From Methanobrevibacter sp. V74 (GTDB lineage: Archaea > Methanobacteriota > Methanobacteria > Methanobacteriales > Methanobacteriaceae): DNA of 64,000 nt. The notes beneath the pieces were generated by a model. The model saw only the letters and a program-made list of their open reading frames with translations, did not search any database and was not told the origin of the DNA. Positions 46,160-50,931 of this stretch are shown here, piece after piece. Within the stretch, counting starts at the first letter, position 1. The number at the start of each line of letters is the position of its first letter. Location: NCBI RefSeq assembly GCF_963082495.1, contig NZ_CAUJAN010000003.1, forward strand, positions 124,001 through 188,000, read 5' to 3'. The translations under genes and the position numbers were made by a program.

Positions 46160-46317
46160 ACAATCCCCTCTTCTTTAATACTATTAAACTTTTCTTTCAA
46201 AGCACCGTACTTCAAACCTTGCTTAACCAATACAGTCAATTCATCCTCAGGAATACACCTACCAGACAAAAAAACCATATTATCCCTAATCTCAATTTCA
46301 AATTTTATTTCAGACAT
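46156..46317 (-). CDS. Small early protein, 53 residues
   Basis: ATG 46317, behind GAGTGAT, gives SEIKFEIEIRDNMVFLSGRC and a basic helix ending KEEGIV. The longer upstream frame overlaps the previous gene and lacks a site. Stop and next start overlap. No family is recognised. Confidence 0.45.
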   Translation of the reverse strand: MSEIKFEIEIRDNMVFLSGRCIPEDELTVLVKQGLKYGALKEKFNSIKEEGIV

Positions 46318-46322
46318 TTCTA

Positions 46323-46520
46323 TCACTCGCGTGAATTTTTTGCTTTTTGAGGATTGAGTGATTCCCCATAGCTGTATCCTGCAATGTCTACCACGTGCCA
46401 TTTTTGGTCATGTGGGTTTTGCCATAAAAATAGTTTAATCTCTGTTTCTCTGTTCTTTAAATTCATTTTATATCCGTCCAAGGATTTTAGTAAAGAAAAA
46501 TTTTCAGAATTGCCGTTCAT
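46323..46520 (-). CDS. First gene of the early operon, small protein
   Basis: Two starts are possible: ATG 46520 (65 residues) or ATG 46466 (47 residues, MNLKNRETEIKLFLWQNPHD). The region between them matches part of the structured element at 46.9-47.1 kb (GAACGGCAATTC, TTACTAAAA, CTTGGACGGATATAA), so it may be a structured 5' leader, not coding. The C-terminal KWHVVDIAGYSYGE looks globular. Confidence 0.45.
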   Translation of the reverse strand: MNGNSENFSLLKSLDGYKMNLKNRETEIKLFLWQNPHDQKWHVVDIAGYSYGESLNPQKAKNSRE

Positions 46521-46652
46521 GAAAATTTTCTTCCTATACTATACTTTGATTTCATACTATATAAAAGTATCTATTTAGGTATATATTTAAAAAGCAACCT
46601 ATTTATATAAAAAGGTGTAGATATTTATATAACTAACCACAAAGGAAGTATT
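46521..46652. promoter_or_regulatory. Divergent promoter/operator between early operon and AbrB-like regulator
   Basis: A 132-bp AT-rich region with several TATA-like boxes. It has a palindrome ATACT/AGTAT around ATATAAA (46554-46570) and repeated CTATTTA-type strings (46571, 46599). This is where a lysogeny switch would be expected, with the early genes leftward and the regulator rightward. Confidence 0.55.
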
Positions 46653-46832
46653 ATGATAATGTTCAATTATACTAGTAAAATTAATTATGCTAATCCCGAA
46701 ACAAAATCATTAAAAGTAGGATTGCCTAAAGAAATTGTTAAAGTTTTAAATGTGAAACCAGGCGATACTATGAATTGGCAAGTAGATATTGAAGATGGAG
46801 AAATAAAAGTCATTGCTAAAAAACAAGAATAA
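46653..46832 (+). CDS. AbrB/MazE-like transcriptional regulator
   Basis: A 59-residue protein. The core KSLKVGLPKEIVKVLNVKPG, then DTMNWQVDIEDGEIKV, is the swapped-hairpin AbrB/SpoVT fold. GGAAG precedes ATG 46653. It is the only plausible repressor in the early region and is divergent from the early operon across a palindromic promoter, so it is the candidate lysogeny regulator. It could instead be a lone antitoxin-type protein. Confidence 0.7.
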   Translation: MIMFNYTSKINYANPETKSLKVGLPKEIVKVLNVKPGDTMNWQVDIEDGEIKVIAKKQE

Positions 46833-46894
46833 AATAACCAAATTAAAATCAAGATATGCAATATGTTTTTTTTAAAATATTTATAAAAAAAGTT

Positions 46895-47117
46895 TAAAAG
46901 CATAGCTAAGTAATTTAAACTCCGCTTTCCGTTAGCGACTATTTTAAAATTTATCATATCTTGTTTAAAAGATAAACAAAAACTTAAATAGTATTTTGAC
47001 CATAAATTATTATTGGTTACAGAATTCATTATATCCGTCCAAGGTATTCTGTTTTTAGTAACCGATGTAGGGGTGAGGAATTGCCGTTCCTAAGACCCCC
47101 TACGTTATTGTTACAAT
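46895..47117 (-). ncRNA. Structured repeated element, copy 1 (probable ncRNA)
   Basis: Read on the minus strand: a hairpin GTAGGGG/CCCCTAC enclosing AGGAA/TTCCT, a second GGTTAC/GTAACC hairpin enclosing CAGAAT/ATTCTG, a stem of ACTATTT-type arms with a 41-nt loop, and a CGCT/AGCG hairpin. Copy 2 at 48790-48995 shares two exact 24-bp blocks and keeps the first hairpin with different paired bases. Both copies have a similar TATA region before ATTGTAAC. Open frames over it are not convincing. Confidence 0.5.
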
Positions 47118-47184
47118 CATTAACTTTGTTTTTCAAATTATTTATATTCTTTTATTCAAAAAAAATAAGAATGAAAGATTATTG

Positions 47185-48297
47185 TTAATTTTCATCTTTA
47201 ATCTTAATGTATTTCTTTATAATGTTTAAAATTCTTTCTTTATAATTATAAACATCTGATATCTTAATTATATCTATCTTATCTCCTTTTTTAGTTCCAT
47301 AATCATAAGTTTCAATTTTATCAAATAATTCAATTCTTAAATTATTAAGATTATTGAAATGGAATCTAGCAATTGGGTAATATTGATTATCATCAAATAA
47401 GATATTACAATAAGACTGTCTATCCCTAATTGCTATCCTATCACAATCAGTTATTTCAGTTGCAATTGATCTAATAATGTAAAAACCTTCTAATTCTTTA
47501 TCAGTTGTGATAATTTTAGGTTTATCTTCAACAGTTTCCTCAATTTCTTCTAAAGTAGATTGAGTGGATTCTTCAAGTTTATCATTATTTGTTACTGCAT
47601 CAACTAATCTTTTTTCAACTTTTTCATTAAGTATTTCAGTATTAACAGATATAATTAATGAAGTGAATTTCTCTTTAATAGCAGGGGTTAAAATTCCCTC
47701 ATAAACTTGCTTACCAATAACTTTAACAAAATCCTCTGAAGGATTTTCTAATTCTTGTATTAAAGTTTTTTTAATTAAATTACGATATTTCAAATCATCT
47801 GCTCGATTAACAACATCATCAATATTAAATTCACTTTTAATAAATTTTTCCAGTTCTTTAATATCATTTTTTGTTAAATTTAACAAATCAATATCTAAAA
47901 ATGGTTTATCGGCCATTCTGTTATTATCATCTCCAGTAGTGAAAAATTTATATTCTAATCCATTAGTTAATATTCCGATTTGAATATCTGTTATACTGAA
48001 GTATCGATATAATTGCGAAATATAATCTGCAGTTAGCGGATTGTTGACTTGTTTACATTCAATAAATATTACTGGATTGTTATCTTCTATTATTGCAATG
48101 TCTACTTTTTCTCCTTGTTTTGTTCCAACATCTGCGGTGTATTCTGCTCTTACTTCAGCAGGATTAGCAGTATCATAACCCATTAATTTTAAAAATGGTA
48201 TTATTAATGCTAGTTTTGTGGTTTCTTCACTATCTATATGTTCTAATTTTGTGTTTATTTCTTTTGAGAATTCTTTTATTTTATTTTCGAATGACAT
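47185..48297 (-). CDS. HsdR-N-like PD-(D/E)XK nuclease-domain protein
   Basis: About 370 residues from ATG 48297, behind GGGATT. Residues 30-150 match the N-terminal nuclease domain of type I restriction HsdR: LIIPFLKLMGYDTANPAEVR, then KVDIAIIEDNNPVIFIECKQ (the D...ExK catalytic motif), and QLYRYFSITDIQIGILTNGL. No helicase follows. The C-terminal 110 residues form a second domain (IATEITDCDRIAIRDRQSYC, ILFDDNQYYPIARFHFNN), like that of similar stand-alone proteins in mobile elements. It is flanked by two copies of the structured element. A defence or exclusion role is plausible. Confidence 0.65.
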   Translation of the reverse strand: MSFENKIKEFSKEINTKLEHIDSEETTKLALIIPFLKLMGYDTANPAEVRAEYTADVGTKQGEKVDIAIIEDNNPVIFIECKQVNNPLTADYISQLYRYFSITDIQIGILTNGLEYKFFTTGDDNNRMADKPFLDIDLLNLTKNDIKELEKFIKSEFNIDDVVNRADDLKYRNLIKKTLIQELENPSEDFVKVIGKQVYEGILTPAIKEKFTSLIISVNTEILNEKVEKRLVDAVTNNDKLEESTQSTLEEIEETVEDKPKIITTDKELEGFYIIRSIATEITDCDRIAIRDRQSYCNILFDDNQYYPIARFHFNNLNNLRIELFDKIETYDYGTKKGDKIDIIKISDVYNYKERILNIIKKYIKIKDEN

Positions 48298-48371
48298 TTT
48301 AAATCCCATTTATTTTGAGTTAATAATAGATTATTTAATTTTGAATATATAAACTTTATTATTTGATTAAA

Positions 48372-48386
48372 TTAAACAATGTTTAA
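48372..48386. promoter_or_regulatory. Operator-like palindrome upstream of the HsdR-N-like gene
   Basis: TTAAACAATGTTTAA is a perfect odd palindrome next to the gene's TATA region. The same 13-bp core in inverted form, TAAACATTGTTTA, lies at 49145-49157 upstream of structured-element copy 2, suggesting one regulator controls both. Confidence 0.5.
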
Positions 48387-48427
48387 CCAGTTCAATACAA
48401 ATATATTAATTTGTACAGTCAAAAAAA

Positions 48428-48445
48428 TAAAACACCGGTGTTTTA
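48428..48445. promoter_or_regulatory. 18-bp perfect palindrome
   Basis: TAAAACACCGGTGTTTTA, with a GC core in otherwise very AT-rich DNA, lies 130 bp upstream of the HsdR-N-like gene. It may be a protein-binding site. No second copy was noticed. Confidence 0.45.
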
Positions 48446-48508
48446 AAATCTAGTGTTTAACAAAAAATAGTAAAAGATAGCAAACTGTACAACGTAATAA
48501 AATAAAAA

Positions 48509-48533
48509 GAATAGTTAAAAAACTTAACTATTC
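48509..48533 (-). terminator. Hairpin terminator
   Basis: A perfect 10-bp inverted repeat GAATAGTTAA/TTAACTATTC with a 5-nt loop overlaps the stop codon of the truncated T5orf172-like frame. It ends that transcript, although a strong U-tract is absent. Confidence 0.5.
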
Positions 48534-48720
48534 CTTTTCTCGATTTTCAAAGTATCAAAGTATTCTTCAGCATCAGGATGCTCAATAAAACTATGAACTT
48601 GACCTTTATTCTCTTCAACAATCTGTTTAACATCATCAATACTAATACGGAAGAATTCTTTTCTCATGTTAATTTTATTAACCCTTTTATCATTAAATCT
48701 TTCATGTAATTCTGATTCTA
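48524..48720 (-). pseudogene. C-terminal remnant of a T5orf172/GIY-YIG-type protein
   Basis: A frame without a start reads YELESELHERFNDKRVNKIN, then MRKEFFRISIDDVKQIVEEN, and ends KIEKRNS. LExELHxRFxxKRVNxxNxRKEFFR is the signature end of T5orf172-type (GIY-YIG-related) proteins. The N-terminal part is missing, its place being taken by structured-element copy 2. An internal ATG (MRKEFF) could in principle yield a short peptide. Confidence 0.6.
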
Positions 48721-48789
48721 ATTCATAAAAGTATGTAAAAAAGAATAGTTCTTTTTTATATTTTTTTGTAAAAAGTAGTGATATTTGTT

Positions 48790-48995
48790 TATAGCCCCAG
48801 CTATGGATTGTAAACTTCGCTTTCCGTTAGCGACTATTTTAATTAAGTTTAAATAGTATTTTGACCATAAATAATAAATGGTTACGAAAATCATTTCATC
48901 CTCGTAGGTGTTCTGTTTTTTTAGTAACCTGTGTTTGTAAGTGTGCGAGGAGCGGTCACTCCAACGACCACACTTCACAACACGAATGTTACAAT
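48790..48995 (-). ncRNA. Structured repeated element, copy 2 (probable ncRNA)
   Basis: It shares with copy 1 the exact 24-bp blocks at 48818-48841 and 48849-48872, GGTTAC/GTAACC arms, and a minus-strand start ATTGTAAC behind TATAAATAT. Its first hairpin is GTGTG/CACAC with inner GGAG/CTCC, different bases but the same pairing as copy 1. The stem ACTATTTTAA/TTAAATAGT has a far shorter loop than copy 1. It ends in an ATAGC/GCTAT hairpin. Confidence 0.5.
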
Positions 48996-49144
48996 ATACT
49001 TTTTTGTTTTTTCAGATATTTATAATATTTTATATATTACTCCCTATCCTATTTTTTTCATATATGGATCATTAATCCAAAATATGTAGGTGTTGTTTTA
49101 TTATTAGTCTAATTAAATATTTAAAGGTTTTTATTTATTTATTT

Positions 49145-49157
49145 TAAACATTGTTTA
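49145..49157. promoter_or_regulatory. Second TAAACA-TGTTTA palindrome
   Basis: TAAACATTGTTTA is the reverse complement of the site core at 48373-48385. It lies about 110 bp upstream of the putative promoter of element copy 2. Confidence 0.45.
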
Positions 49158-49266
49158 GTTTTTTTAATTAAAAATTTGAAAGTAAACCATGTATTTTTCA
49201 AAATTTCTATAAACAATCACACAACAAAAACTGTATAAAATTAGAAAAGTGTACAAAAAATATGGA

Positions 49267-49758
49267 TTATAACCGAATATTATTTTCTACAAAAAATTCT
49301 TTTAAAGTAACATGTTTTACCCCTAATTCATCACAAACATGAGGAATATTATGATCTTTATCTACAGATTCATTTGTAATTACAATTGCATCATGTTTCC
49401 ACCCATATGCAATTAACCATGGATCTGCAACAGTACTTGCATAATTCCCCCATTCATTTTCAAGGGTTCTACCATTGCCAAATTCTTCTTTATAAATTGA
49501 TAGTTTTTCAATTAATTGAATACATTCATGTTCTCCATTAATTAATTCTTTGAAAAATATTCCATTAGCTCTTGAATCAATATCCAACCAATGTTCCCTA
49601 ATTCTTTTAGCCTTTAATTCTTCTTTAACTTCATTAATTGAAACAAGAACTCCCTCTTCAATTAACTCATCAATTTTATCCCAAAAACTATCAAAAACTT
49701 CTGGAAAATAATGGTCATGAGCAATAATTAAATAGTTAGTATCAATAACATACACCAT
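49267..49758 (-). CDS. PIN-like ribonuclease (DUF4411-type), probable toxin
   Basis: A 163-residue protein starting MVYVIDTNYLIIAHDHYFPE, with the first PIN Asp in IDTN. It has EVKEEL as the next acidic motif, and later ADPWLIAYGWKHDAIVITNE with the last Asp cluster. DUF4411 PIN-domain RNases form toxin-antitoxin pairs with Xre/ImmA-type partners, as here. It is co-transcribed with the upstream gene, 6 bp away. Confidence 0.75.
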   Translation of the reverse strand: MVYVIDTNYLIIAHDHYFPEVFDSFWDKIDELIEEGVLVSINEVKEELKAKRIREHWLDIDSRANGIFFKELINGEHECIQLIEKLSIYKEEFGNGRTLENEWGNYASTVADPWLIAYGWKHDAIVITNESVDKDHNIPHVCDELGVKHVTLKEFFVENNIRL

Positions 49759-49764
49759 TGAAAA

Positions 49765-50919
49765 TCACCCATGAATATCCAAATCAAGTTTATTAATATT
49801 ATCTAATGAAGTATCCAAATACCTCATTGCTTGAGTTGCAGTAATAACATTATTTTCATATGCATTTAAAATTAATTTAGTGAACGGAGTGCCATCTTGT
49901 TTTCTTTTTAGTATAGGTATCGGAATATGAGGTTTGTTTTTCTTTTTTTTCTCTAAATCATTTTTTCTTTTTTGTTGATTATCTATTTCAAGTTGATTAA
50001 TCCAATCATTTTTTAATTCATTATTAATTAGTTCACTATCATATAACTTATAAACAATGCTTTGTTTACTAACACCATAAAAATTAGAAAGATTAGCAAC
50101 TTTTAAAACGTGCTTGTTTTTAGTAAATAATTCTAAACTTTTTAATGTTTCTTTAGGAATTAGTATTTCCGCAGCTACTTTATTGCAAAATATTTCCTTC
50201 ATATTATACTTATCAACATCACAAATAGCACTTTCCCCTCTGATTAGATGAGCCAATTCATGCATTAATGTAAAAATCCTCCGATTATGATAATTTTTAC
50301 CATTTAATAAAATTATTGGACAAGTATGATAATATAAAGAGCAACCACTAATTTCTGATTCAGGAATATCTTTAGTTTCAAAGACTAAAATTCCCATATT
50401 AAAAAATATTTCTTTCCAATGGTTCAAAAAACTATTATGAGTACTATCTCTATTCCCATTACTATTAAAAATCCATTTTTTTTGAGTTTCAAAACTTACA
50501 TTTAATAAATTTCTAATATACTGACCTAATTTAATGTAATTTTGTTCATTAGAAACATATTGGCTGAAATTTGGAATCTCCATATTCATATCCTCATGGA
50601 TTTTAATATATGCATCACGCCTAGATTTTGCTTTTCTTATCTCTAATCTTAATGCAGGACTATATTCTTCAATTTTTGCATCTGATCTAAATTCAATTAA
50701 ATCTTCATCTTCTTTCGGAGGTTGTGAAAGAAAATAAAAGAAAGAAGGTCTTTTGTATTTCCTCGCCATATTTCTTAAATCTGCCCATGTAGGTTTATCC
50801 TGACCAGATTCCCACTTTTCAGCATCTTTTAAATAATCTGGCAATTCATCTAATGTAAATCCTGCATTCTCTCTTGCCCACTTAATCATTATAGGATTTG
50901 CATCAACTTTAGCAGCCAT
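49765..50919 (-). CDS. Xre-family HTH plus ImmA/IrrE-type metallopeptidase, probable antitoxin
   Basis: About 384 residues. An N-terminal Xre-like HTH (MIKWARENAGFTLDELPDYL, then WESGQDKPTWADLRNMARKY) is followed by the linker FFYFLSQPP and a COG2856/ImmA domain with zinc motif HELAH (FTLMHELAHLIRG) and a downstream Glu in EIFCNKVAAEILIP. It forms a toxin-antitoxin-like pair with the PIN protein. It could instead be an ImmA-type inducer of excision. The start at 50919 is chosen over 50931 but both are possible. Confidence 0.75.
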   Translation of the reverse strand: MAAKVDANPIMIKWARENAGFTLDELPDYLKDAEKWESGQDKPTWADLRNMARKYKRPSFFYFLSQPPKEDEDLIEFRSDAKIEEYSPALRLEIRKAKSRRDAYIKIHEDMNMEIPNFSQYVSNEQNYIKLGQYIRNLLNVSFETQKKWIFNSNGNRDSTHNSFLNHWKEIFFNMGILVFETKDIPESEISGCSLYYHTCPIILLNGKNYHNRRIFTLMHELAHLIRGESAICDVDKYNMKEIFCNKVAAEILIPKETLKSLELFTKNKHVLKVANLSNFYGVSKQSIVYKLYDSELINNELKNDWINQLEIDNQQKRKNDLEKKKKNKPHIPIPILKRKQDGTPFTKLILNAYENNVITATQAMRYLDTSLDNINKLDLDIHG

Positions 50920-50931
50920 TTTGATCATCAC

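Follow-up and report, generated by a model that had tools for sequence, protein, structure and literature searches.

Two related elements in a provirus of the methanogen Methanobrevibacter sp. V74 are probably genes for antisense RNAs of ∼120 nt, which would belong to the immunity region of this archaeal provirus and silence the early genes of matching viruses. The elements lie in the window, the 64,000-nucleotide stretch of DNA that was analysed, and are members of a family characterized by conserved stems, by a TATA-like box at a near-constant position and by a six-base hairpin loop and a short tag that recur in the leader of the early operon.

Searches with a covariance model of the family, R1, confirm two minus-strand elements, at 47117-46888 (162 bits) and 48995-48783 (203 bits). 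Alignment of the two copies bears out much of the original prediction: two identical stretches, of 24 and 25 bases, a common ATTGTAAC start, stems whose bases differ while pairing is kept, and the insertion said to alter the length of the middle loop. The original prediction had also remarked that a portion of copy 1 matches the leader of the first early gene. The portion is indeed found again at 46460-46520, and this match, which consists of a shared loop and tag, has become the key to the reading of the system. The features discussed below are as follows.

47014..47133, plus strand: proposed antisense RNA 1 (copy 1), based on sequence with strand and promoter evidence, its ends predicted; start near 47014, hairpin 2' at 47015-47063, loop TTGCCG of hairpin 1' at 47081-47086, U-rich end at 47125-47133
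46983..46990, plus strand: TATA-like box of antisense RNA 1, CTTAAATA, 32 nt before GGTTAC; same place in 44 of 46 elements
47029..47044, plus strand: putative antisense tag, complementary to 16 nt surrounding the Shine-Dalgarno site in the early leader; exact shared tag CCTTGGACGGATATAA
46923..46937, no strand assigned: candidate operator, a conserved inverted repeat situated upstream of the TATA-like box, with compensatory changes in relatives
48879..49013, plus strand: proposed antisense RNA 2 (copy 2), of other specificity, based on sequence, matching leader not found; hairpin 2' at 48880-48929, loop CGGTCA at 48953-48958, U-rich end at 49000-49012
48848..48855, plus strand: TATA-like box of antisense RNA 2, TTTAAATA, from the same scan of 46 elements
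46653..46832, plus strand: small MazE/AbrB-like gene between antisense RNA and early operon, putative repressor; Pfam MazE_antitoxin 1.5e-07, above cut-off
46468..46530, minus strand: early-operon leader, proposed target; hairpin loop CGGCAA at 46510-46515, tag at 46468-46483
46323..46466, minus strand: first early gene, 47 aa, without a family match; the ATG following the tag is the likely start
47185..48309, minus strand: HsdR_N-type nuclease gene between the two copies, taken as cargo; Pfam HSDR_N 2.8e-12

The R1 model was built from 14 relatives obtained by DNA searches of the genus and family. Matches occur in 21 of 67 genomes of the genus and in 29 of 150 genomes of the order, representing 9 of 19 genera; strong matches are present in 7 of 17 IMG/VR loci, which were themselves obtained via an early-operon protein. 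A weak match in L072 and a weak second match in L070 were dropped, and L085 and G019b were omitted as repeats of L058 and G019a, respectively. No Rfam family matches the window at gathering score, and none of note matches nearby. An exact-core scan of viral_contigs yielded no matches; the same scan of genome_contigs gave 15, all bacterial by title and taken as chance. RNAalifold on the 14 relatives predicts 21 pairs, 10 of which have both sides changed in at least one sequence, and on this ground the structure is considered to go beyond chance. Against 2000 shuffles, which ignore relatedness, covariation stands out at each of four pairs of the apical stem (0 shuffles each). Of the three variable pairs in hairpin 2, two covary as well (0 and 1 shuffles), the third giving 391. 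Homologues without the stems, which had been named in advance as evidence against the elements, did not occur among the relatives.

Within proviruses the element is located between the integrase-side cargo region and the early operon, upstream of the latter, and adjoins a small gene on the strand opposite to that operon. Judged by eye, the product of this small gene is MazE/AbrB-like in 20 of 27 cases and ribbon-helix-helix (RHH)-like in the remaining 7; Pfam searches with ten of the genes gave six MazE matches (two below cut-off), two weak ribbon-helix-helix-type matches and two genes without a match. We infer that these proteins act as repressors. An unannotated element (159.6 bits, L251 2550-2744) is also present in the public virus vir080 (BK063677.1; host Methanobacteriales, human gut), where vir080_00004 is MazE/AbrB-like by eye. 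The inverted repeat that may serve as operator has the form CGC..GCG and is found upstream of the TATA-like box of copy 2 as well (48818-48832), and its two sides change together in relatives. Elsewhere in this neighbourhood, aIF-1A and RIO kinase genes adjoin the integrase; like the Methanobacteriales host of vir080, they suggest a host among the methanogens of this order. For the early AAA protein, a search of the phage collection returned no relative at 1e-5. A small early protein (L058 13255-13569 and its early-operon relatives) is STIV_B116-like, above cut-off in one locus; the STIV_B116-like family includes type III anti-CRISPR ring nucleases.

The early leader lies ∼300–445 nt downstream of the proximal element (∼870 in G006b). 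It contains a hairpin bearing the six-base loop of the element on a different stem, followed by 7–17 nt exactly shared with the element around the Shine-Dalgarno site. When leader anchors were picked with knowledge of the loop, the loops were equal in 27 of 27 cases, against a mean of 4.4 and a maximum of 14 in 100,000 permutations. A blind test, in which the leader was found by the tag alone within 650 nt and the hairpin by minimum energy, gave agreement in 25 of 35 cases; 20,000 permutations averaged 3.4 and never exceeded 11. Agreement was complete at tag scores of at least 22 (25/25) and nil at scores below 20 (0/10). The ten misses are distal (w2, G006a, G012a1, G000x1), stand-alone (G045, G054, G010, G041b), degenerate or out-of-range copies (G006c and G006b); the leader of G006b falls outside the 650-nt limit and agrees when read. 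Nine loci were added later, eight of them read with the hypothesis in hand: a leader is recognisable in four and the loop agrees in all four. Leaders with agreeing loops are present in G124, G068 and G102, the last two with new loops (CAGCAA and UUACAG), and none was seen within 700 nt in G128a, G128b, G079, G071 and G074. In vir080 the leader before vir080_00005 carries the same loop as the element, CUGCAA, and the shared tag CCUGAGAUGAUG.

The three stem bases next to the shared loop are equal in only 4 of 27 pairs, so that the identity of the loops is not explained by recent copying. The loop begins and ends with C and A, or with U and G, in 40 of 41 elements (G045 alone departs from this, through a shifted anchor; G010, with its longer loop, was omitted), and ∼17 different loops are found among 42 elements, one entry again being a shifted anchor. 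Tags are nearly as numerous as viruses, and loops and tags combine freely; w1 and L086, for instance, share a tag and have different loops. The exact shared tag has a median length of 12 nt in the virus's own leader and of 7 nt in the leaders of other viruses (30 versus 870 comparisons), and it is longer than in all other viruses in only 21 of 30. A search of the window for another source of the tag found exact occurrences at the two places only. By whole-length duplex energy, computed without structure, the own leader comes out on top in only 16 of 27 cases, and tag mismatches are not clearly of the G-U-tolerant kind (10 versus 7). Pairing of the loop with the element's own tag was also considered and no common pattern was apparent by eye.

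Element and leader share these sequences in the same sense and are thus unable to pair, so that any RNA mechanism requires transcription of the complementary, plus strand of the element. Three features point in this direction. Firstly, 44 of 46 elements, divergent genera included, have a TATA-like box 29–32 nt before GGTTAC, a box being counted when it agrees with TTTAAATA or TTTATATA in at least 7 of 8 bases; the sequences from which R1 was built contain this motif, and ties were settled towards the expected place. Secondly, hairpin 2, read on the minus strand, shows 12 A-C and 0 G-U cells across 39 elements, perhaps five events by descent. Thirdly, the plus-strand fold is the lower one in 35 of 39 elements, and in 31 of 42 it lies below the value expected from composition (mean z −4.07 versus −3.15). 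Box, hairpin 2 and fold therefore favour a plus-strand antisense RNA; hairpin 1 does not discriminate, as its wobble cells show no strand bias (G-U 8, A-C 6), and the U-rich end is little above shuffles (longest T-run 5.67 versus 4.95). The original prediction misread the strand of the elements. The minus-strand region that it took for a TATA box and start is shared by the two copies as claimed and is more likely the 3', U-rich side of the plus-strand RNA; for the third and fourth of its minus-strand stems, promoter and inverted-repeat DNA is a more probable reading than RNA.

These same data bear on an unlikely alternative, namely that a virus-specific RNA-binding protein recognises loop and tag on both minus-strand RNAs, the element being a decoy or an autoregulated leader. 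Equal loops and tags in the same sense, with compensated stems, are what shared protein sites would be expected to look like, and the absence of a strand signal in hairpin 1 fits as well. Recognition of so many loops, and of nearly one tag per virus, in free combination (as in w1 and L086) would however be hard for one small protein, and both hairpin 2 and the TATA-like box point to the plus strand.

The antisense reading suggests the following course of events. An RNA of ∼120 nt would be transcribed from its own TATA-like box on the plus strand up to the U-rich end, and its gene, together with that for the MazE/AbrB- or RHH-like protein, would constitute an immunity region divergent from the early operon. 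The loop of one hairpin, complementary to the six-base loop of the early-leader hairpin, may establish a loop-loop (kissing) contact, after which a second stretch of the RNA would pair over the Shine-Dalgarno region of the leader and cover the ribosome site. Pairing in trans of this type would be predicted to block translation of the early operon, both in the provirus itself and in any superinfecting virus with the same loop and tag, and would thereby confer immunity. Additional copies with other loops, such as copy 2, could extend the immunity to other viruses.

A second alternative, which we consider very improbable, is that the minus-strand element is a structured leader with a gene for a small protein (MIFVT..WLKCYLNF..IVADGKRS..). 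An open frame with similar residues does run across several elements (cluster 0), and longer inserts preserve the frame in several of them. The start codon is nevertheless absent in G014, G012a1, G041 and G013, early stops interrupt the frame in G041 and G045, and divergent relatives lose the sequence; a conserved minus-strand protein was rejected, as neither start codon nor frame is preserved throughout.

The proposal of an RNA-regulated or RNA-guided system around the HsdR_N nuclease is supported as regards RNA-based control and not supported as regards the nuclease, in which the partner of the elements was misidentified; that the RNA guides or controls this enzyme as a defence system is the least probable reading of all, for although the gene sits between the two window copies and its homologues adjoin elements in L070, L063 and L117 (in the last as a 105-residue C-terminal piece), as in the window, tblastn recovers such homologues in only 3 of 54 loci (44 of the 54 carry an R1 match) and PADLOC gives here only a weak type I methyltransferase match. 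As most element loci are devoid of it, the nuclease is taken as recurrent cargo and not as a regular partner. In L117 (6686-7334, G000:C2) the order element, nuclease piece, element is the same as in the window. Other genes of this region include a DUF4411 gene with an IrrE/ImmA-type (M78) partner at 49267-50931, matched by PADLOC to RmrA-type models; homologous DUF4411/M78 pairs are found close to elements in L058 and L060.

Two-copy loci number four: the window, G006, G012 and a second locus in the source genome (G000:C2). Copy 2 of the window looks intact, with TATA-like box, hairpins and U-rich end, and combines the minus-strand loop TGACCG with the tag CACCTACGAGGATGAA. In viral_contigs, 96 stretches were returned as possible targets of copy 2. 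For 80 of these the surroundings were inspected, with 81 matches in all; a stem of 3 or more was present in just 3, each in a contig of at least 49% G+C. In 138 family genomes only copy 2 itself was recovered. Searches with the distal copy G000x1 gave, in 137 genomes, the copy itself and one gene-end match in its own genome, and in viral_contigs one match in coding-like sequence; for G006a the search covered viral_contigs alone, and its single match was again coding-like. The distal copy G012a1 has a loop and tag equal to those in the early leader of the G057 provirus. A match of this kind would be seen if extra copies gave protection against other viruses, and common descent would look the same; the G012a1 loop is the commonest one (9 of 42). 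Stand-alone elements are found in five loci (L066 9751-9968, L067 252-460, L126 1277-1491, L123 4485-4695 and L132 6340-6541), with alike flanks in five species and no MazE-like gene or early leader seen beside them. They are perhaps copies kept by the host. We tentatively suggest that proviruses collect tandem antisense RNA genes of differing specificity and that some hosts keep stand-alone copies, which would amount to a pairing-based repertoire against related viruses, with fast selection acting on the six-base loop and the ribosome-site tag.

If the antisense reading is true, loop and tag represent a readable code that predicts, for gut and rumen methanogens (the presumed host group), against which viruses a given provirus protects, and archaea possess c4-like antisense immunity based on a separate RNA family. 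No description of such an RNA in methanogen viruses was found in the open-access papers searched, most subscription papers lying outside that scope.

RNA-based immunity acting on an early leader, as proposed here, is familiar from the CI RNA of satellite phage P4. The P4 RNA is made from that very leader and works through termination of transcription. Closest in action, by analogy, appear to be two other RNAs. The Tant RNA of Halobacterium virus phiH is described as an antisense RNA that confers immunity by exposing the ribosome sites of the early transcript to cleavage, a DNA-binding repressor acting beside it (PMC4284463). Tant is transcribed opposite its own target, whereas in the elements gene and proposed target are ∼300–870 nt apart and only loop and tag are shared. 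The c4 RNA of phages P1 and P7 is structured, complementary to its target mRNA around the ribosome site and responsible for heteroimmunity of P1 versus P7, with specificity sequences likely in loops (PMC12197685); a further source lists it (RF01695) for Proteobacteria and phages (PMC2864571). The RF01695 covariance model has no gathering-score match in the window, and none up to E 5 on either strand of 46300-49300. As in c4, loop and tag of the putative RNA are complementary to an early leader at its ribosome site. Unlike c4, the elements are archaeal, possess their own TATA-like box, rely on one loop and one tag, and adjoin a MazE/AbrB- or RHH-like gene.
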